Shown here piece after piece: positions 43,350 through 55,814 of a DNA stretch of 64,000 nucleotides (the stretch's first letter is position 1; each line of letters begins with the position of its first letter). This DNA comes from [Clostridium] symbiosum (lineage in GTDB: Bacteria > Bacillota > Clostridia > Lachnospirales > Lachnospiraceae). A program made the translations under genes and the position numbers. The notes under the pieces are model-generated. The model ran no database searches. It was not told the origin of the DNA and saw only the letters and a program-made list of their open reading frames with translations. Location of the stretch: positions 1 to 64,000 of the forward strand of contig JAETSN010000002.1 of the NCBI GenBank assembly GCA_021769625.1. Direction: 5' to 3'.

Positions 43350-43490
43350 GCCCGCCGGGAAAGAAAATATCCCTGCTGCAACCCGCTTCCGCTTCGGGCT
43401 AAACGCAGCGGACGCTAAACTCGTGAAATACCTCGTTAAGCGCCGGCGTTTAGCAGAGTTGCCTCAGGGATATTTTCTTTCCCGGCGGGC
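43350..43490 (+). repeat. Family A palindromic element, copy 5
   Basis: 26-bp perfect outer arms GCCCGCCGGGAAAGAAAATATCCCTG (43350-43375)/(43465-43490); inner GCTAAACGC/GCGTTTAGC. Confidence 0.93.
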
Positions 43491-44942: not shown

Positions 44943-45401
44943 ATGGATGAACAGAAAAAACAGGAATATGCGGAATATGTGAAGGAGGTCACGCCGAAAA
45001 ATAATCTGCCGCTGCAGATGGCAAAAGCTTTTTTGGTGGGAGGCATCCTCTGTGTGATCGGGCAGGCGATCCTGAACATCGCGCAGCAGAAGTACGGGCT
45101 GGACAAGGATACGGCGGGGAGCTGGTGCGCTATGCTGTTGGTACTCGCCAGCGCGATCCTGACGGGGCTTAACCTGTATCAGAAGTTAGTAAAGTTCGGC
45201 GGCGCCGGTGCTCTTGTGCCGATCACCGGGTTTGCCAATTCGGTCGCCTCGGCGGCGATAGAATACCAGAAAGAAGGGCAGGTCTATGGGATCGGCTGTA
45301 AGATCTTTACGATCGCAGGCCCGGTTATCCTGTATGGGATCTTTACGAGCTGGGTGTTGGGAGTGATTTACTGGATCGGGAAGTGCTTCGGGGTGTTTTG
45401 A
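44943..45401 (+). CDS. spoVAC: Stage V sporulation protein AC
   Basis: FLVGGILCVIGQAI, KFGGAGALVPITGFANSVASAAIEYQKEGQVYGIGCKIFTIAGPVILYG. Confidence 0.93.
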   Translation: MDEQKKQEYAEYVKEVTPKNNLPLQMAKAFLVGGILCVIGQAILNIAQQKYGLDKDTAGSWCAMLLVLASAILTGLNLYQKLVKFGGAGALVPITGFANSVASAAIEYQKEGQVYGIGCKIFTIAGPVILYGIFTSWVLGVIYWIGKCFGVF

Positions 45402-45675
45402 GGGAAGTTTAAGGAAAGCTGCAAAAAGATGTAGAAGTGGGGCATGTATTATGGGCAGGGTAGCGAATGAAACAATTTGTTAGCCTGCTTTTTATTGTGC
45501 TTTTGGCTTTTTTTGATTATAATAAGGTAAAAAGTATTTTGAGAAGGAAACAATATAATTGTTTGACGAGTGTTTGCTGAAATATAAGTTAAGCGGACGT
45601 GGAATTGAATTGCGTGAACTTTTAGAAACGGATTTAGAGTAAATTTCAACTTAAATAGTTTTTAAAGGAGCAAAT

Positions 45676-47169
45676 ATGGAAGAATTGTTTGAATTGGCAA
45701 AATTTGATTCTTACAAAGAAGATAATCGCAGGGAAGTTAAAAAAGCAGAAGGCGGGCTTCCAAATAGCTTGTGGGATACTTACTCCGCTTTTGCCAACTG
45801 CTATGGCGGAGTTATCATTCTTGGGGTAAAAGAGGATAAAGACGGTAATTGGGATACGACCGGGCTGAAGAATGCGGCAAAATTGAAGAAGGATTTCTGG
45901 AATACTCTTAATAACCGGAAAAAGGTGAGTATAAATCTTTTGAAAGATGGTGATATGGAAACTTTTTCGGTGGCTGGCACAGATGACGTGATTATGGTGA
46001 TCTGGGTGCCGAGTGCAAAACGGGAGCAAAAGCCAGTATATATCAATGATGATCTGTTTGGAGGGACTTTCCGCAGAAATTGGGAGGGAGACTATCACTG
46101 TACCAGATTGCAGGTCAAAACAATGCTGAGAGATCAGGCAGAAGAAACTATGGATATGGAAGTGCTCGATGAGGCTGAAATGGAAGATTTGAACCGGGAT
46201 TCTATCCGGGGTTACCGTAACAGCCATAAATCTTTTAAACCGGGGCATCCATTTGAGAGATTGGATGACAATGAGTATCTCAGAGTGATTGGAGCAGCGG
46301 GATTTTCTAAGGAGGAAAAAAGGCTTCATCCCACTGCAGCCGGTATGCTTATGTTTGGAAATGAGTATGATATTGTAAGGTATTTTCCGGAATATTTTTT
46401 GGATTATAGGGAAAATCCGGATACGGTAATCAGATGGACGGACAGGCTTCAATCATCGTCCGGTGAATGGTCAGGAAATTTATTCGATTTTTATTTTCGT
46501 GTATACAATAGGATGATTAAGGATATCAAGGTTCCGTTTAAGATGCAGGGAGGTTTCCGGATAGACGATACTCCGGTTCACAGGGCACTGCGGGAAGCGT
46601 TGGCAAATTGCATTATCAATACGGATTTTTATGGAAAATATGGTATCCTTATAATCAAGGAAGATGATAAAGTCATATTGGAGAATCCCGGTTATATCAG
46701 ACTCGGAAAGGAACAGATGCGCAGGGGCGGAAAGTCCGACCCGAGAAATAAGAGTCTGATGAAGATGTTTAATCTGATAGATATAGGTGAGCATGCAGGC
46801 AGCGGAGTACCGAATATATTTAATGTATGGGAAGATGAGGGCTGGGAGGAGCCTGTCATAACAGAAAGTTTTGATCCGGACAGAACGTCACTTACTTTAA
46901 AATTTGTTAAAAAACAAGCGATAAAAACAAGCGATAAAAAACAAGCGATAAAAACAAGCGATAAAAAACAAGCGATAAAAACAAACCGAAACAGGAAGGA
47001 AATCAGGTTATACCTGCAAAAATGTGAAACAGCAAAAGCCAGCGATCTCGCAGAATTGCTTGGTTTGAGCATGGCAAGAACGAGAGCGATACTTTCTGAA
47101 ATGGATGATGTTGAGACATTGGGAACAAATAGAACCAGAAGGTATCGGCTGCGAGAGAAGGGTGAATAA
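45676..47169 (+). CDS. AlbA_2/Schlafen-type ATP-binding transcriptional regulator-like protein with C-terminal HTH
   Basis: REVKKAEGGLPNSLWDTYSAFANCYGGVIILGVKE; HRALREALANCIINTDFYGKYG; C-terminal winged-helix-like segment. Confidence 0.85.
   Translation: MEELFELAKFDSYKEDNRREVKKAEGGLPNSLWDTYSAFANCYGGVIILGVKEDKDGNWDTTGLKNAAKLKKDFWNTLNNRKKVSINLLKDGDMETFSVAGTDDVIMVIWVPSAKREQKPVYINDDLFGGTFRRNWEGDYHCTRLQVKTMLRDQAEETMDMEVLDEAEMEDLNRDSIRGYRNSHKSFKPGHPFERLDDNEYLRVIGAAGFSKEEKRLHPTAAGMLMFGNEYDIVRYFPEYFLDYRENPDTVIRWTDRLQSSSGEWSGNLFDFYFRVYNRMIKDIKVPFKMQGGFRIDDTPVHRALREALANCIINTDFYGKYGILIIKEDDKVILENPGYIRLGKEQMRRGGKSDPRNKSLMKMFNLIDIGEHAGSGVPNIFNVWEDEGWEEPVITESFDPDRTSLTLKFVKKQAIKTSDKKQAIKTSDKKQAIKTNRNRKEIRLYLQKCETAKASDLAELLGLSMARTRAILSEMDDVETLGTNRTRRYRLREKGE
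46911..46986 (+). repeat. Alternating 13/14-nt tandem repeat within CDS (ACAAGCGATAAAA[A])
   Basis: Encodes KKQAIKTSDKKQAIKTSDKKQAIKT; same DNA unit read in two frames. Confidence 0.92.
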
Positions 47170-47219
47170 AGGAATGGTTGAAAACAGTTGGGGAATGACG
47201 AATCAGAAATTATTTTGGA

Positions 47220-47276
47220 CAGGCCTACGGGATCGGCTGTAAGATTTTTACGATCGCAGGCCCTGTTATCCTGTAT
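47220..47276 (+). pseudogene. Diverged duplicate of spoVAC 3' region (57 nt)
   Basis: 53/57 identity to 45279-45335 (counted by eye). Confidence 0.88.
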
Positions 47277-47315: not shown

Positions 47316-47951
47316 ATGATAAAGATACGAAATGAAACGGAAGCGGACTATAAGATCGTGGAGGAGATCACGAGGAAGGCGTTTTATAACCTTTATGTCC
47401 CGGGCTGCTTTGAACATTATCTGGTCCATGTTATGCGGGGGCATAAAGATTTTATCGCGGAGCTTGATCTTGTGATGGAACTCGATGGGCGGATCATCGG
47501 GAACATCATGTATACAAAAGCGAGGCTGGCCGGTGAAGACGGGGCGGAAAAAGAGATCCTCACGTTCGGGCCGGTGTGCATCGCGCCGGAGTTTCAGCGG
47601 ATGGGATATGGAAAAAAGCTTATGGAATATTCCTTTGAGAAGGCGGTGCAGCTCGGCTATGACACTATTGTCATATTCGGCAGCCCGGCGAATTACGTGA
47701 GCAGCGGTTTCAAGAGCTGTAAAAAGTTTTGTATTTCTCTGGAAAACGGGAAATATCCGGCGGCGATGATGGTAAAGGAGCTCATCCCCGGTGTACTGGA
47801 CGGAAAGAAGTGGGTTTATCATGACAGTCCCGTGATGGCGGTGGAGGAGGAAGATGCAAGACGGTTCGACGATACGCTGGAAAAGATGGAGAAAAAGCAT
47901 CAGGCAAGCCAGGAAGAGTTTTATATTATGAGCCATTCTTTTCTGGAATAA
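47316..47951 (+). CDS. GNAT-family N-acetyltransferase
   Basis: IKIRNETEADYKIVEEITRKAF, VCIAPEFQRMGYGKKLMEY. Confidence 0.88.
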   Translation: MIKIRNETEADYKIVEEITRKAFYNLYVPGCFEHYLVHVMRGHKDFIAELDLVMELDGRIIGNIMYTKARLAGEDGAEKEILTFGPVCIAPEFQRMGYGKKLMEYSFEKAVQLGYDTIVIFGSPANYVSSGFKSCKKFCISLENGKYPAAMMVKELIPGVLDGKKWVYHDSPVMAVEEEDARRFDDTLEKMEKKHQASQEEFYIMSHSFLE

Positions 47952-49338: not shown

Positions 49339-49498
49339 AGCCGAAAGCTGAACTGCTGCATCAAAAAAGAAAGATGTCCAATTAAACTTGTGCACATCAC
49401 AAAATCATGCTATGTTTATATAATAGATGTCCGCAGAAGGAGCTTCGCCGTATTCGCAGTATGCGGGCGCGCAAATGAAAGACACAGGAGAAAACAGG

Positions 49499-50599
49499 AT
49501 GAAGATCATGTCGAACCGTATGGATTACGGATTTTTAAAATATCAGCAGGAGTTTGAGGACAAGGCGCTTGAGGTACTGCGCTCAGGGTGGTATGTGCTG
49601 GGGAAGGAAGTCAGCACTTTTGAGGAGCGGTTTGCCGCCTACACCGGGGCGAAATACTGTGCGGGAGTGGCGAACGGCCTGGAGGCGCTTCAGATCGCCG
49701 TGCACCTTTTGGGGATCGGCGCCGGAGATGAGGTCATCGTGCAGGGGAATACATATATCGCCAGTGTGATGGGGATCACCATGAACGGAGCGACGCCTGT
49801 ATTTGTGGAGCCGGATGCGTATTATCAGATCGATGCGGATAAAATAGAAGAGAAGATCACGGAAAGGACAAAAGCGGTGATGGTGGTGCATTTGTACGGC
49901 CATGTGGCGGATATGGACAAGATCGTGGAAATCTGCAAAAAGCATCATCTGAAGCTGATCGAGGACTGCGCCCAGTCCCACGGGGCGACGTATAAGGGGA
50001 AGATGACGGGCACTTTCGGCGACGCGGGCTGTTTTTCTTTTTATCCGTCCAAGAATCTGGGGGCTTTCGGCGACGGCGGCGCTGTGGTGACAAATGATGA
50101 GTCCCTTGCGAAGGAAGTAAAGATATACAGAAACTACGGCAGTGAAAAGCGCTATTACAATAAGGTGGTGGGGACAAATTCCCGTCTGGACGAACTGCAG
50201 GCGGGGCTTCTCAATGTGCGCCTCTCCCATATGGAGGAGATCACGAAGGAACGGCAGGAGCTGGCGGCGCGCTATCGGGAAAACATAAAGCAGGAACTTG
50301 TGGCGCTCCCGATGGAAAGGGAGGAGGCCGAGGCTGTCTGGCATCAGTACGTGATCCGCTGCGGGAGGCGGCAGGAGTTGATTGACAATTTAAGTCAAAA
50401 GGAGATCGGAACGATCATTCACTATCCGATCCCGCCGCATCTGTCGGAGGCCTACGCGTATCTCGGGCATAAAAAGGGTGATTTCCCGATCACGGAAAGT
50501 TATGCGGATACGGTGCTCTCCATCCCGATGTATACAGGGATGACGAGGCAGGAGCAGGATTATGTGATCGAGGCAATCAATGGGTTTAGTGGCAAGTGA
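49499..50599 (+). CDS. DegT/DnrJ/EryC1/StrS-family PLP aminotransferase (FdtB-like)
   Basis: YCAGVANGLEALQIAVHLLGIGAGDEVIVQGNTYIAS; EDCAQSHGATYKGKMTGTFGDAGCFSFYPSKNLGAFGDGGAVVTND. Confidence 0.93.
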   Translation: MKIMSNRMDYGFLKYQQEFEDKALEVLRSGWYVLGKEVSTFEERFAAYTGAKYCAGVANGLEALQIAVHLLGIGAGDEVIVQGNTYIASVMGITMNGATPVFVEPDAYYQIDADKIEEKITERTKAVMVVHLYGHVADMDKIVEICKKHHLKLIEDCAQSHGATYKGKMTGTFGDAGCFSFYPSKNLGAFGDGGAVVTNDESLAKEVKIYRNYGSEKRYYNKVVGTNSRLDELQAGLLNVRLSHMEEITKERQELAARYRENIKQELVALPMEREEAEAVWHQYVIRCGRRQELIDNLSQKEIGTIIHYPIPPHLSEAYAYLGHKKGDFPITESYADTVLSIPMYTGMTRQEQDYVIEAINGFSGK

Positions 50600-50772
50600 A
50601 GACAGAAGGGCGGCGGAAGCAGGTGTCAGTTCATGACATTTGGAGGCTGAATTGTGACTGGAAACCAGATAAAATAGAGAATCATCGTTGTCAAAAAAAC
50701 AGAATTAAAGTATACTGGAAATGTCAGTGATTTTATGGAAAAGGAAAGGACTGTCTTTTGACAGTAAAGCTT

Positions 50773-51216
50773 ATGAGTAAATTGGATGAGCAGATAAAAC
50801 TGTTGGAATGGAAAGATCTGGGAGATGAGAGGGGGAATCTCGTGGTGGTGGAAGGAAATATGGACATTCCCTTTGAGATCAAGCGGATCTTTTATATTTA
50901 CGGATCGGATGACACGGTTGTCAGGGGACAGCATGCCAACATAAATTCGGAATTTGTGATGATCAATGTCTGCGGGACCAGCAAGGTCAAGGTGGATAAC
51001 GGTACGGAGAGCCGTGTGATCGAACTGAACAGGCCCAGGATGGGGCTTTATCTGAAAAATAATGTGTGGAAAGACATGTATGATTTTTCGCCGGATTCCA
51101 TTCTGCTGGTGCTTGCCAGCGAGCATTATGATGAGAAGGAGTATATCCGTGATTATCAGGCATACTTAAAATATATGAAAAAGATAGAGCAGACTGACGC
51201 GGACCGGAAAGAGTAA
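50773..51216 (+). CDS. WxcM/FdtA-like sugar 3,4-ketoisomerase
   Basis: DERGNLVVVEGNMDIPFEIKRIFYIYGSDDTVVRGQHAN. Confidence 0.88.
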   Translation: MSKLDEQIKLLEWKDLGDERGNLVVVEGNMDIPFEIKRIFYIYGSDDTVVRGQHANINSEFVMINVCGTSKVKVDNGTESRVIELNRPRMGLYLKNNVWKDMYDFSPDSILLVLASEHYDEKEYIRDYQAYLKYMKKIEQTDADRKE

Positions 51217-51351
51217 TAGAGTTCGTACAGCAGAAGATCGGAAGCAGCAGAGAACTGTGACAGCTAAAGTCGGAAGCAGTGAAGAATTGGCATGGCACAG
51301 GGGTCGGAGGCGGCAAGGAAGCAGGAACAGTAAAAGAAAGGTAAATGCAGG

Positions 51352-52302
51352 GTGAGTAAATTATCAATAGTAGTACCGGTTTATTATAATGCGGATACGC
51401 TGGAACTTTTATATGAGGATATGCAGAAAAAAGTCCTGGACAGGCTGGAGGAGTATGAGATCGTCTTTGTGGACGACGGTTCCGGAGATGATTCCTGGGA
51501 GGTGATGAACCGGCTGAGGGATCGGGACGAGCATATCAAGTGTGTGAAGCTTTCCCGCAATTTCGGGGAGCATGCGGCGCTGCTTGCGGGGCTCTCCGCC
51601 AGCACCGGGGACTGTGCGGTGACGAAGCAGGCGGACCTGCAGGAGGATTCGACACTGATCTTAGAGATGTACGAGAGCTGGAAGAAGGGCAATAAGGTAG
51701 TGCTGGCGGTCAGGAAAGAGCGGAAGGAGAATCCCGTAAAGGTATTTTTTGCGAATATGTATTATAAGATCATCCGCAGTATGGTCAATAAAAATATGCC
51801 TGCGGGCGGCTGCGACTGTTATCTGGTGGACAGGAAGGTGATCGAGGTGCTGGAGCGGCTGGATGAAAAGAATTCTTCTCTGACGCTGCAGGTCATGTGG
51901 GTGGGATTTAAGACGGATATGATCTATTTTGTGCGGCAGGACCGGGAGATCGGGAAATCCCGCTGGACACTGTCGAAGAAGGTGAAGCTGGTGATGGACT
52001 CCGTGATGAGCTTCTCCTATTTTCCGCTGCGTTTTATGTCGGGGCTCGGCATCGTGTTCAATATTCTTGCCGTGATATTGCTGATCAGTGTTTTTGTGGA
52101 GAAATTCACAAACGGAACGCCGATCGCGGGCTGGGCGTCCCTGATGTGTGTGATACTCTGCGCCTCCGGTATTTTGATGCTGATGATGGGCATACTGGGA
52201 GAATATATCTGGCGCACGCTGGATGCGGCGAGGACGCGTCCGCCTTATATTGTGGATGAGGTGAAGGATGTGCGGGATAAAGAGCGGGATAAAAAGGAGT
52301 AA
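51352..52302 (+). CDS. GT2-family glycosyltransferase (GtrB/DPM-like)
   Basis: LSIVVPVYYNADTLELLYEDM, FVDDGSGDDSW, KQADLQEDS, C-terminal TM pair. Confidence 0.92.
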   Translation: MSKLSIVVPVYYNADTLELLYEDMQKKVLDRLEEYEIVFVDDGSGDDSWEVMNRLRDRDEHIKCVKLSRNFGEHAALLAGLSASTGDCAVTKQADLQEDSTLILEMYESWKKGNKVVLAVRKERKENPVKVFFANMYYKIIRSMVNKNMPAGGCDCYLVDRKVIEVLERLDEKNSSLTLQVMWVGFKTDMIYFVRQDREIGKSRWTLSKKVKLVMDSVMSFSYFPLRFMSGLGIVFNILAVILLISVFVEKFTNGTPIAGWASLMCVILCASGILMLMMGILGEYIWRTLDAARTRPPYIVDEVKDVRDKERDKKE

Positions 52303-52408
52303 ATAAGTAAAAAAAGAGTTTAGGAAAAAAGAAAAGATAAAGTGATAAGAGCAGAAAATATGGGAGAAAGAGCTAAGAGGCTGAGAAAATAAAGGACTGA
52401 GAAAAGCA

Positions 52409-54517
52409 TTGGAAAACAGGAAAGAAACAGGAGGTTATTTTAAGAAATTAAAAATTGTACTGATTGTTTTAAGCATTTTTGCGGCTGTGAAAATGCTTTT
52501 TTTTGCATTCGGGCTGGATGAAGAATATCAGCTTGTGATGGCTTACCGCCATGTAAAAGGGGATAAGCTGTTTTTGGATATGTGGGAGCCCCACCAGTCC
52601 TCCGCCTTTCTTTGCGAGCTGCTGATGCGGCCTTATCTGGCGGTATGCGGGAAAACAGGCGTGGTGATCTGGCTGAGGCTCTGCGGGACGTTTATCCATC
52701 TGGGGGTGAGCGTGTATCTGTGCCGGACACTGCGGCGGATGATCGGAAAGAACAGCACGTTTTTGCTGGGGCTGATCTATTTTAATACGATCCCCAAACA
52801 GATCATGCTGCCGGAGTTCGGTATCATGCAGGTATGGTTTCTCACACTGCTGTCACTTTTTCTGATACGGTATTATGACAGAGATGTCGTAAACGGCGGC
52901 GAAGGTGTCGGTGCTGCTGGTAGAGGTATCAGCACAGGCGTCAGAGGTGTTGGTGAGGGCATTAGCGTTATCAACAGATATGTCAGAAGGAAAAAATATC
53001 TGATATTTGCGGCGCTTGCGCTTGTATTGGAGGTGCTTTCTTATCCATCCTGCCTGCTCTTGTATTTTCTGGTGATGTGGATCCTATGGAGGCGTTCCGG
53101 GAAGGACAGATTTGCGGATATGGGAATTTTTACCGGGATCTGTGCGGGGGGCGGCATCGCATATCTGGGGCTGCTTTTGCGGAATAATACGGTGGAAGGG
53201 CTGATCGGAACGCTCTCCTATATTGTGGGCGGAGATATCACGCATTCCCTGTCTTTTGCGGATAAGCTTGTTTCTCTGGGGAGAGATCTGCTGGTACCCG
53301 TCGGGCTTGGCGTTTTTATTTTTGTTCTGGCGAAGGCAGGAGCAGCAGTGACCGAGGGATGGCGGAAGGCGAAATGCGGAGAGGAAGGGAAAGGAACAGA
53401 AATTGTAAAAGAAGGTGAAAAGGTGCGGCTGATCTGGACCGTGGCGCTCTCCTGTCTGGTGGAAATATGGTACTGGGTGGTTTTCAACGCGGGATATGAA
53501 GGGATGCAGATTCATCTGGCGGTGTTTGCAGCACTGGGGATATCCTATTATGTTTCCGCGATGAAAAAAGAAGGCATACAGAGAACTTTGAAACAGGCAT
53601 GCCGGAAAGAGAGAAAAACAGGGAATAGAGAAGCGGGAAAGATTGAAACGGAATGCATAAAAGGAGAAAAAACAGACGAGGCAGGCGGCGGTGAAGAGGC
53701 TGCAGTGATAAAAAGAGCTATGCAGAGAGGCCTGCTGCTGGATCAAATGATTTTGGTTGCGGGATCGCTTGCTGCGGTAGTATATCTGACGGATCTTGGA
53801 CTGATGGATTCCCTGCCTCATGCCATGACGGCGGCGTTTTTCGGAATGACGCTGGTCATCATGTATTGGGAGGAACAAGGAGGCTTTGGCAGAGGATCGG
53901 GTAAGTATACCGATGAGACAGATGAAAATGCGGCAGGGCGGACAGAGAATAACGCCGATGGAGCAGAGGAAGATACAGCGGGATGGGCAGCCGGGAGACA
54001 TGGTAATCCTGCAGGCTGCGTTTATATTGTATTACTGTTATGGGCGTTTACCGCCGTATTCGGAAAAGGTTATACGCTGCGCTCCGGGACAGGATACCAC
54101 AATGTACTGCAGAGCGGCGGCATCCTGAAGCATGGGCCGGCAGCCGGAACGATCTCCGATTATATGTGCGCCTATATTTATAACTGCGACTATGAAGACT
54201 GGCAGGGCATGATACGGGACGGGGACAGGGTGCTGATCATGGTGGATCAGGTCATGAATCTGGGGACGATCCAGTATCTGTTCAAAGATGTGGAGATTTC
54301 GCATTATTCTATTGTCAATCCCACGGCTTACGATGAGAGGCTGCTTGCTTACTGGGAAAAGTTTCCGGAAAAGCAGCCGAATGTCATCATTGTGGATGGC
54401 TGGTACGGTCAATTGATGACGGATCCGAACGGCTGGCTGATGCGGTATGCGGAGGGAGAATTCGGGTATACTTCGATGGAAGAGGGACGGTATATTCGGA
54501 TATACCGGAAAGAGTAA
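52409..54517 (+). CDS. Polytopic membrane protein, GT-C-like
   Basis: Many TM segments, GLDEEYQLVMAYRHVKGDKLFLDMWEPHQSSAFL, extended low-complexity loops; downstream of GtrB-like gene. Confidence 0.65.
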   Translation: MENRKETGGYFKKLKIVLIVLSIFAAVKMLFFAFGLDEEYQLVMAYRHVKGDKLFLDMWEPHQSSAFLCELLMRPYLAVCGKTGVVIWLRLCGTFIHLGVSVYLCRTLRRMIGKNSTFLLGLIYFNTIPKQIMLPEFGIMQVWFLTLLSLFLIRYYDRDVVNGGEGVGAAGRGISTGVRGVGEGISVINRYVRRKKYLIFAALALVLEVLSYPSCLLLYFLVMWILWRRSGKDRFADMGIFTGICAGGGIAYLGLLLRNNTVEGLIGTLSYIVGGDITHSLSFADKLVSLGRDLLVPVGLGVFIFVLAKAGAAVTEGWRKAKCGEEGKGTEIVKEGEKVRLIWTVALSCLVEIWYWVVFNAGYEGMQIHLAVFAALGISYYVSAMKKEGIQRTLKQACRKERKTGNREAGKIETECIKGEKTDEAGGGEEAAVIKRAMQRGLLLDQMILVAGSLAAVVYLTDLGLMDSLPHAMTAAFFGMTLVIMYWEEQGGFGRGSGKYTDETDENAAGRTENNADGAEEDTAGWAAGRHGNPAGCVYIVLLLWAFTAVFGKGYTLRSGTGYHNVLQSGGILKHGPAAGTISDYMCAYIYNCDYEDWQGMIRDGDRVLIMVDQVMNLGTIQYLFKDVEISHYSIVNPTAYDERLLAYWEKFPEKQPNVIIVDGWYGQLMTDPNGWLMRYAEGEFGYTSMEEGRYIRIYRKE

Positions 54518-54752: not shown

Positions 54753-55814
54753 ATGGGACAGCAAAATAAAAAAACAGGAGTGAACGGAAACGGCGTTACG
54801 GCGGGAAACCAGAGTTTCATGCCGAAGAGGGAGGTCTATATCAGGCAGAGCGCCTGCGTGGCGGGGACGAAGGAAGGGGAAGGCCCCCTGGGAGAGCTGA
54901 TTGATATGGTGGGCAAGGATGATCTGTTCGGCTGTAAGACCTGGGAGGAAGCGGAAAGCACGTTGCAGAAGGAAGCGGTGACGCTGGCGCTCGGAAAGGC
55001 GGGCATGAAGGCGGAGGAGATCCGCTACCTGTTTGCGGGTGACCTGCTTGGTCAATCCACGGCTTCCTCCTTCGGTGCATCTTCGTTTAATATACCCCAT
55101 ATAGGGGTGTACGGGGCATGCTCCACCTGCGGGGAGACACTGGGACTCGGCACGATGGCGATCTCGGGCGGGATGGCGGAAGATGTCATCTGTGTCACAT
55201 CCAGCCATTTTGCCAGCGCGGAAAAGGAATTCAGGTATCCGCTCGCCTATGGAAACCAGCGGCCGCCGTCAGCAACCTGGACCGTGACAGGGGGCGCGGC
55301 TTTTGTGCTGACTTCCAAAACAAGCAAAAGGAACCGGGCAAAGATCACCGGCGTGACGAACGGAAAGATCGTGGACTATGGCATCAAAGACTCCATGAAC
55401 ATGGGAGCCTGTATGGCGCCTGCCGCCTGTGAGCTGATCGCCGCGAACCTGCAGGATTTCGGCAGGACGCCGGAGGATTATGACAGGATCATCACCGGAG
55501 ATCTGGGGCTTGTGGGCCAGAGGGCGCTGATCGATCTGCTGAAAGAAAAAAATATAGACATAGAAAAGCAGCATATGGACTGCGGCATTGAAATCTATGA
55601 CAGCAACGCGCAGGATGTGGGAAGCGGCGGCTCCGGCTGCGGCTGCAGCGCGGTGACGCTCTCCGCCTATATTCTGAAGATGCTGGAGGAAGGCGTCTGG
55701 AAGAGGGTGCTTTTTGTGCCCACCGGGGCGCTTTTATCCAAGACCAGTTTTAACGAGGGGATGACGGTTCCGGGGATCGCGCACGGGATCGTGCTGGAGG
55801 GTGCTGGCGCATGA
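54753..55814 (+). CDS. spoVAD: Stage V sporulation protein AD
   Basis: Thiolase-like: VYGACSTCGETLGLGTMAISGGMAEDVICVTSSHFASAEKEFRYPL; GSGGSGCGCSAV. Confidence 0.95.
   Translation: MGQQNKKTGVNGNGVTAGNQSFMPKREVYIRQSACVAGTKEGEGPLGELIDMVGKDDLFGCKTWEEAESTLQKEAVTLALGKAGMKAEEIRYLFAGDLLGQSTASSFGASSFNIPHIGVYGACSTCGETLGLGTMAISGGMAEDVICVTSSHFASAEKEFRYPLAYGNQRPPSATWTVTGGAAFVLTSKTSKRNRAKITGVTNGKIVDYGIKDSMNMGACMAPAACELIAANLQDFGRTPEDYDRIITGDLGLVGQRALIDLLKEKNIDIEKQHMDCGIEIYDSNAQDVGSGGSGCGCSAVTLSAYILKMLEEGVWKRVLFVPTGALLSKTSFNEGMTVPGIAHGIVLEGAGA

Follow-up and report, generated by a model that had tools for sequence, protein, structure and literature searches.

Why does a second, truncated copy of the spoVAC 3′ end lie at the far edge of an ATPase gene? 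In the window (the whole stretch of 64,000 nucleotides analysed here), this displaced fragment occupies positions 47217..47276 on the plus strand, as found by repeat and profile matches. It is 60 nt in length, lies in direct orientation to its counterpart in the intact spoVAC gene (45276-45335), starts 1941 nt beyond it, and is identical to it at 55 of the 60 positions (blastn E-value 4e-19 within the window; 6e-14 for a spoVAC 3′ profile searched against all fetched DNA). The sequence-only reading had given 53 matches over 57 positions, with three synonymous differences and one Val to Ala change. Both statements were borne out, and because the repeat extends three bases further, one more synonymous change is added. 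The mismatches are at positions 3, 8, 12, 30, and 48 of the 60-mer; four of the five are synonymous (GGG/GGA from the three extra bases, TAT/TAC, ATC/ATT, and CCG/CCT), and one is Val to Ala. No third copy of the spoVAC 3′ end was found in the same genome. I interpret the fragment as the decayed right-hand repeat, attR-like, of a mobile cassette integrated at the spoVAC 3′ end, with a probability of roughly 0.78.

The locus can be read part by part, all on the plus strand. The target gene spoVAC is intact (44943..45401, from the in-frame ATG at 44943, with the ORF open from 44886; Pfam SpoVAC_SpoVAEB, 1.2e-44) and is preceded by spoVAB, spoVAA, and sigF. A 33-nt inverted repeat, 94% complementary with a 75-nt loop, lies between sigF and spoVAA (43350-43490). 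The 3′ end of spoVAC (45276..45401) is the first repeat copy and, judging from the direct repeat and from the tail identity described below, was probably supplied by the cassette; the core GAAGGGCA is at 45273-45280. An intrinsic terminator hairpin followed by a T run comes next (45453..45490; fold of -20.1 kcal/mol, z -5.0), and such a hairpin 3′ of spoVAC is conserved in other genera. It is followed by a promoter-like TTGTGC-N17-TATAAT, read in the sequence (45495..45523), which would drive the cargo. The same segment is also found after each repeat copy of Acetatifactor muris and after copy 1 of the G135 array. A terminator hairpin in the G135 array was unsupported in the short stretch folded. 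The roles of promoter and terminator in the cassettes are predictions read from the sequence. The decayed leader (45524..45675) consists of the ends of a lost JAMM/RadC-like gene: compared with G008, its two pieces match either end of an intact gene whose middle is deleted in the window. The cargo gene itself (45676..47169) encodes an ATPase of 497 residues with AlbA_2/Schlafen and HATPase_c_4 domains (Pfam). It contains a tandem 27-nt repeat (KKQAIKTSD) at 46908-46988 whose copy number varies among homologues.

The right end of the cassette is only a remnant (47170..47216). In an alignment with L100, the window GAATCAGAAATTATTTT pairs with GGATCAGAAAAACATTTTT and at CAGG switches over to the spoVAC copy, which is what a deletion between short repeats would give; the deleted part would have contained CTAACTTGACAC. 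The last 66 nt of the fragment were presumably lost as well, before the GNAT acetyltransferase gene (47316..47951; Pfam, and homology to G005 from 47304), which is probably the original right neighbour. The fragment lies in the seam between 47176, up to which the ATPase block is homologous to G001, and 47304, from which the GNAT block is homologous to G005. It derives from spoVAC and marks the far edge of the inserted ATPase gene, as had been claimed. The window copy is a decayed relic of a cassette.

Did the insertion separate spoVAC from spoVAD? Behind the fragment follow the GNAT gene, an AraC regulator, genes for DegT, a WxcM-like protein, a GT2 glycosyltransferase, and a 702-residue membrane protein, and then spoVAD (54753..55814, plus strand; PF07451, 2.3e-137), 9.35 kb from spoVAC. 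The glycan block from DegT to the membrane protein (49427..54517, plus strand) belongs to the genus as such and keeps spoVAC and spoVAD apart independently of the cassette. Glycan genes are also found 3′ of spoVAC in seven of eight genus relatives (G001-G008), where G008 contributes DegT alone before its contig ends and G002 has none within the fetched region. Since the relatives have glycan genes there too, the ATPase gene did not part spoVAC from spoVAD, contrary to the earlier reading. As to the suggested check for a direct joining of the two genes in relatives, most of the more distant ones have no spoVAD within 10 kb of spoVAC either. What lies between spoVAC and DegT varies among the relatives: PD-(D/E)XK-like AAA, AAA_14/DUF4143-like, and DinB/YafY-type genes or almost nothing (names assigned by eye except for Pfam matches). 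The glycan block between spoVAC and spoVAD, present in the window and at least six genus relatives, may consist of genes for spore-surface glycans that the spoVA region has captured.

Is the arrangement common in other genomes? A spoVAC 3′ copy downstream of spoVAC and past an inserted cassette was found in at least six other Lachnospiraceae genomes, most of the genomes compared being metagenome-assembled. When spoVAC was compared with its own surroundings in 91 loci, one strong independent case emerged, L100. Its order is spoVAC, terminator and promoter, an ATPase gene whose N-terminal part is 91% identical to that of the window, and a spoVAC 3′ copy running through to the stop codon. The layout of spoVAC, cargo, and spoVAC 3′ copy is also seen in G304 and G199, and G001 has a degenerate copy. 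This G001 fragment has an Ala codon (GCN) in common with the window fragment and otherwise resembles the spoVAC of G001; Val is found in all other SpoVAC copies compared, and Ala is private to the window fragment among them. The common codon would be consistent with common descent of the two fragments. In G135, four displaced copies form a tandem array, with a repeat of 295 nt at 98% identity that includes a segment past the stop codon. In the isolate A. muris DSM 23669, three spoVAC 3′ copies lie on one contig, the displaced ones being 96-98% identical to the resident one. There, spoVAC is followed by a JAMM/RadC-like gene, hsdM, hsdS, hsdR, and a YgjP/M78-type metallopeptidase gene, then by a spoVAC 3′ copy (98.5%), an ATPase gene, another copy (96.4%), and a unit opening with a helix-turn-helix gene. 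A. muris and G135 have the same alternation of spoVAC, cargo, copy, cargo, and copy.

In a search with the C-terminal protein sequence, extra copies were found in G000, G135, and G199 among 250 genomes with a match, and in L100 and A. muris among 50 further genomes. Recognisable extra copies are rare, at only about 1-4% of the surveyed genomes, samples picked partly by their relation to the window. Several matches were set aside. A double match in G205 is one 127-nt stretch common to two contig ends, an assembly effect; MT839561, matched in a phage collection, is a bacterial contig with an ordinary spoVAC; and weak matches about 1.2-1.7 kb past spoVAC in other loci are, by position only, probably spoVAEB. 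No plasmid match was found. Cassette junctions were also observed in L209 (G199:C70, about 70.2-71.1 kb), around 43 kb from spoVAC, with HsdS before and a HipB-like HTH after them, which suggests a rearranged or displaced array.

The junctions of these copies are constant. In five genera the displaced copies share their starting point, the Glu-Gly-Gln codons some 130 nt ahead of the stop codon. Where it is intact, a conserved cassette end, CTAAYYTRACAC, lies directly before them although the cargo differs, reading CTAACTTGACAC or CTAAYCTAACAC immediately upstream of the copy. The right termini of L100 and of A. muris copy 1 match over about 75 nt, the former following an ATPase gene and the latter a peptidase gene; those of G135 copies 1 and 2 are likewise alike despite differing cargo. 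The pattern CTAAYYTRACACNNNYRGARG, derived from L100, G135, and G199, matches only spoVAC-copy junctions in 2.2 Mb of fetched loci. Among 290 family genomes it was found only in G135 (twice), G199 (twice), and G046 (once), while a reversed-pattern control gave no match. The A. muris junctions, found after the motif had been derived, have it with one additional base. A. muris and G046 are independent confirmations of the end motif. In G046 the same cassette end follows the Wadjet genes JetABCD and lies in a second target, a polysaccharide deacetylase gene (PF01522), with a new 3′ end on the cassette side and the old, shortened end on the far side; the gene pieces of this case are on three contigs joined via a 49-nt overlap. 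The two targets have the 8-base core GAGGGGCA in common at the join. Since the window and G001 are without this motif, they are assigned to the family by the ATPase cargo, the repeat, and partial homology of the terminus.

How could such a layout arise? The cassette would comprise a spoVAC 3′ end, a terminator, a promoter, cargo, and the conserved end motif. It would integrate at the core (GARGGNCA), which lies some 130 nt short of the spoVAC stop codon, supply a new 3′ end, and push the old end beyond the cargo, so that spoVAC would stay intact. Repeated integration would generate tandem arrays. In the window, later losses would have removed the 3′ part of the displaced end together with the cassette end next to it. 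An excised circle is predicted to carry one spoVAC 3′ copy, with CTAACTTKACACAAGGCGGAGGG reading into it. One end shared by units with differing cargo and by two targets with a short core points to a site-specific recombinase, which presumably makes the joins in trans. It counts against this reading that no recombinase was found inside any fetched array, that extra copies are rare, and that L089 and L121 have the ATPase gene without a detectable repeat. The tyrosine integrase of the L142 island and a large serine recombinase of A. muris were considered as the enzyme and set aside, no repeat bracketing either gene.

It might instead be supposed that homologous recombination suffices: circles with a spoVAC 3′ end would enter by a RecA-mediated single crossover, and the junction would be inherited from one ancestral cassette. 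Arrays without a recombinase fit this, and long repeats (up to 295 nt at 98% in G135) would favour such exchange within a strain. It does not account for an end motif that keeps its position in several genera while the cargo differs, nor for a cassette with that end in a non-homologous target where the 8-nt core alone is in common. A common end, differing cargo, and two short-core targets are not expected from homologous recombination alone, and I regard this explanation as unlikely.

If cassettes bring a spoVAC 3′ end, the tails of SpoVAC should be more alike across genera than their bodies lead one to expect. The window, G005, L100, and A. muris (all ending in IGKCFGVF) have a tail identity above the body prediction, with z from 2.5 to 3.5 and each such pair within the top 0.8% of 3321 pairs from 82 spoVAC genes; the statistic is partly circular because the four genomes were picked after the shared C-terminus had been seen. 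The window tail (45336-45401) is 86% identical to those of L100 and L130, while the gene bodies are 55-72% identical; its residual z values of +2.9 and +3.5 fall in the top 0.3% and below 0.1% of the 3321 pairs. In L100, the resident tail ends in GKCFGVF and the displaced copy in GKMMGIF, nearest to L104. The L100 tails and the tail-versus-body statistic agree with an element that restores its target and displaces the old end.

These tails also bear on the proposal of the sequence-only reading that a donor with its own spoVAC had taken part. That the cassette brought a spoVAC 3′ end is probable, given the resident tail held in common with G005, L100, and A. muris. A single exchange that stranded a donor fragment is very improbable, even though the differences between the fragment and the resident gene are mostly synonymous and the resident tail is common across genera. 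Tandem copies, a constant start codon, and an end motif in unrelated genomes are not predicted by it. The proposed BLAST for a donor allele found none closer than the resident spoVAC (92%); the relative G006 is next (88%), and full-length matches elsewhere are at most 85% identical. A copy beside the ATPase gene, which had been named as an observation that would tell against a single event if found in many genomes, is present in G001, L100, G135, G304, and A. muris and counts partly against it. Because the arrangement, the start codon, and (where intact) the end motif recur in several genera with differing cargo, the fragment is better read as a displaced end from recurrent integration than as a chance leftover of a single recombination.

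Could the fragment have a function now, for example as the beginning of a longer GNAT coding sequence or as a promoter? It is in frame with the GNAT ATG at 47316, and the frame is free of stops from 47199. Such a frame would be met by chance in one case of three, the frame contains no ATG, GTG, or TTG from the stop at 47196 up to the GNAT ATG, and the GNAT gene of G005 has no such leader; a present function is therefore even less probable. Least credible of all is a templated insertion or local duplication, in which part of the resident spoVAC would have served as the template at a nearby repair junction: the nearest match is indeed the gene itself, and the fragment is short and placed where two blocks meet, but in independent genomes (L100, G135, G304, and A. 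muris) the same ATPase gene is followed by a spoVAC 3′ copy, and at positions 3 and 12 the fragment has the state common in the genus, unlike the resident gene.

What do the cassettes carry? The cargo includes type I restriction-modification genes, AlbA_2/Schlafen ATPases, HsdS, and, in G046, Wadjet. Across genera, the ATPases encoded next to spoVAC share 79-94% identity among themselves and at most 75% with copies elsewhere, while the SpoVAC proteins of L089, L121, L100, and A. muris are only 70-71% identical to that of the window. As the ATPase identity exceeds the SpoVAC identity, the cargo moved between genera yet stayed at spoVAC. In L089 and L121 the ATPase gene follows spoVAC with no detectable repeat. 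The cargo appears to be mainly defensive, of the sort that protects bacteria from phages and foreign DNA, and the type I restriction-modification or Wadjet genes of several cassettes predict that cargo still to be characterised, the AlbA_2/Schlafen ATPase among it, is defensive too. PADLOC recognised neither the window ATPase nor the JAMM-like protein. Since there are also non-defensive units (G135 has a sugar operon, G199 genes of the kinase-like and AraC types), defence is a tendency and not a rule. A small JAMM/RadC-like protein with an HNHP motif, about 91% identical between genera, is encoded after spoVAC in L130 (10810-11412) and L025 (6306-6938) and has no Pfam or PADLOC match.

Among known systems, the anatomy is closest to the ssrA islands of Dehalococcoides, and also to cassette chromosomes at rlmH and to CIMEs; the units would work in the same manner as these. 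The Dehalococcoides islands lie in tandem downstream of one gene, the tmRNA gene, with 20-bp direct repeats of its 3′ end between them, each immediately preceded by a conserved 15-bp motif; sixteen have the serine recombinase module DsiB, and some are without integration genes (PMC3146451). The tandem array, the 3′-end direct repeats, and the motif upstream of each repeat are alike. In contrast, spoVAC is a protein-coding sporulation gene, its repeats measure about 130-295 nt, the units each seem to bring a terminator and a promoter, and none was seen to contain a recombinase. SCC and the Enterococcus cassette chromosome, defined by ccrAB, occupy the 3′ region of rlmH with flanking direct repeats and restriction-modification cargo (PMC6222049). 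Both sit in the 3′ region of a conserved protein-coding gene, between direct repeats, and have such cargo, while the gene, the att sequence, and the host family differ. No ccr-type serine recombinase motif was found inside the spoVAC cassettes, and their targets are spoVAC and the deacetylase gene, not rlmH; with no ccr and another target, they are not cassette chromosomes. CIMEs are cis-mobilizable elements formed by decay and accretion, flanked by attL and attR, without integration or transfer genes, and stacked at the target end (PMC5704250). The spoVAC units may belong here: they are likewise stacked, flanked by target-end repeats (in the window, L100, G135, G199, G304, and A. muris), and without integration genes found. 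They have a constant junction and a conserved element end as a family, the window copy having lost its motif. Unlike CIMEs, they are small with differing cargo; no ICE or IME sharing their att sites was found, nor a cognate integrase in the fetched arrays.

Integron gene cassettes also form arrays of cargo units separated by a repeated site, and their recombinase may act in trans. The spoVAC units differ in that they seem to carry their own promoter and terminator and the array begins at a sporulation gene; no IntI was found at the array start, which is preceded by spoVAB, spoVAA, and sigF. By eye, the end motif does not resemble a complete attC site. Elements of the gin/skin type are site-specific and break a sporulation gene until they are excised during sporulation (PMC5595907). 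Both lie in sporulation genes, but spoVAC remains intact and reads through in the window and A. muris. Among the papers searched, none describes spoVAC as an integration site; in PMC6907783, SpoVAC is island cargo only.

Do these units constitute a system of their own? At somewhat less than even odds, I propose an integron-like and previously undescribed system of Lachnospiraceae, in which a trans-acting recombinase stacks small, recombinase-free, often defensive cassettes behind spoVAC (occasionally another gene with the core GAGGGGCA), each cassette brings a target 3′ end, a terminator, and a promoter of its own, and the cassettes move between genera. Sporulation would not be disrupted, since the units seem to carry a terminator and a promoter and leave the target intact. 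The motif CTAAYYTRACAC beside a spoVAC 3′ copy may serve as a marker for movable cassettes in spore-forming gut bacteria. As A. muris DSM 23669 is an isolate, excision and integration are directly testable with its array. 3′ of that array lies an IME-like region (L217, 5314-12501) with a streptomycin adenylyltransferase-family gene, a Mob/Pre relaxase gene, and the large serine recombinase gene.
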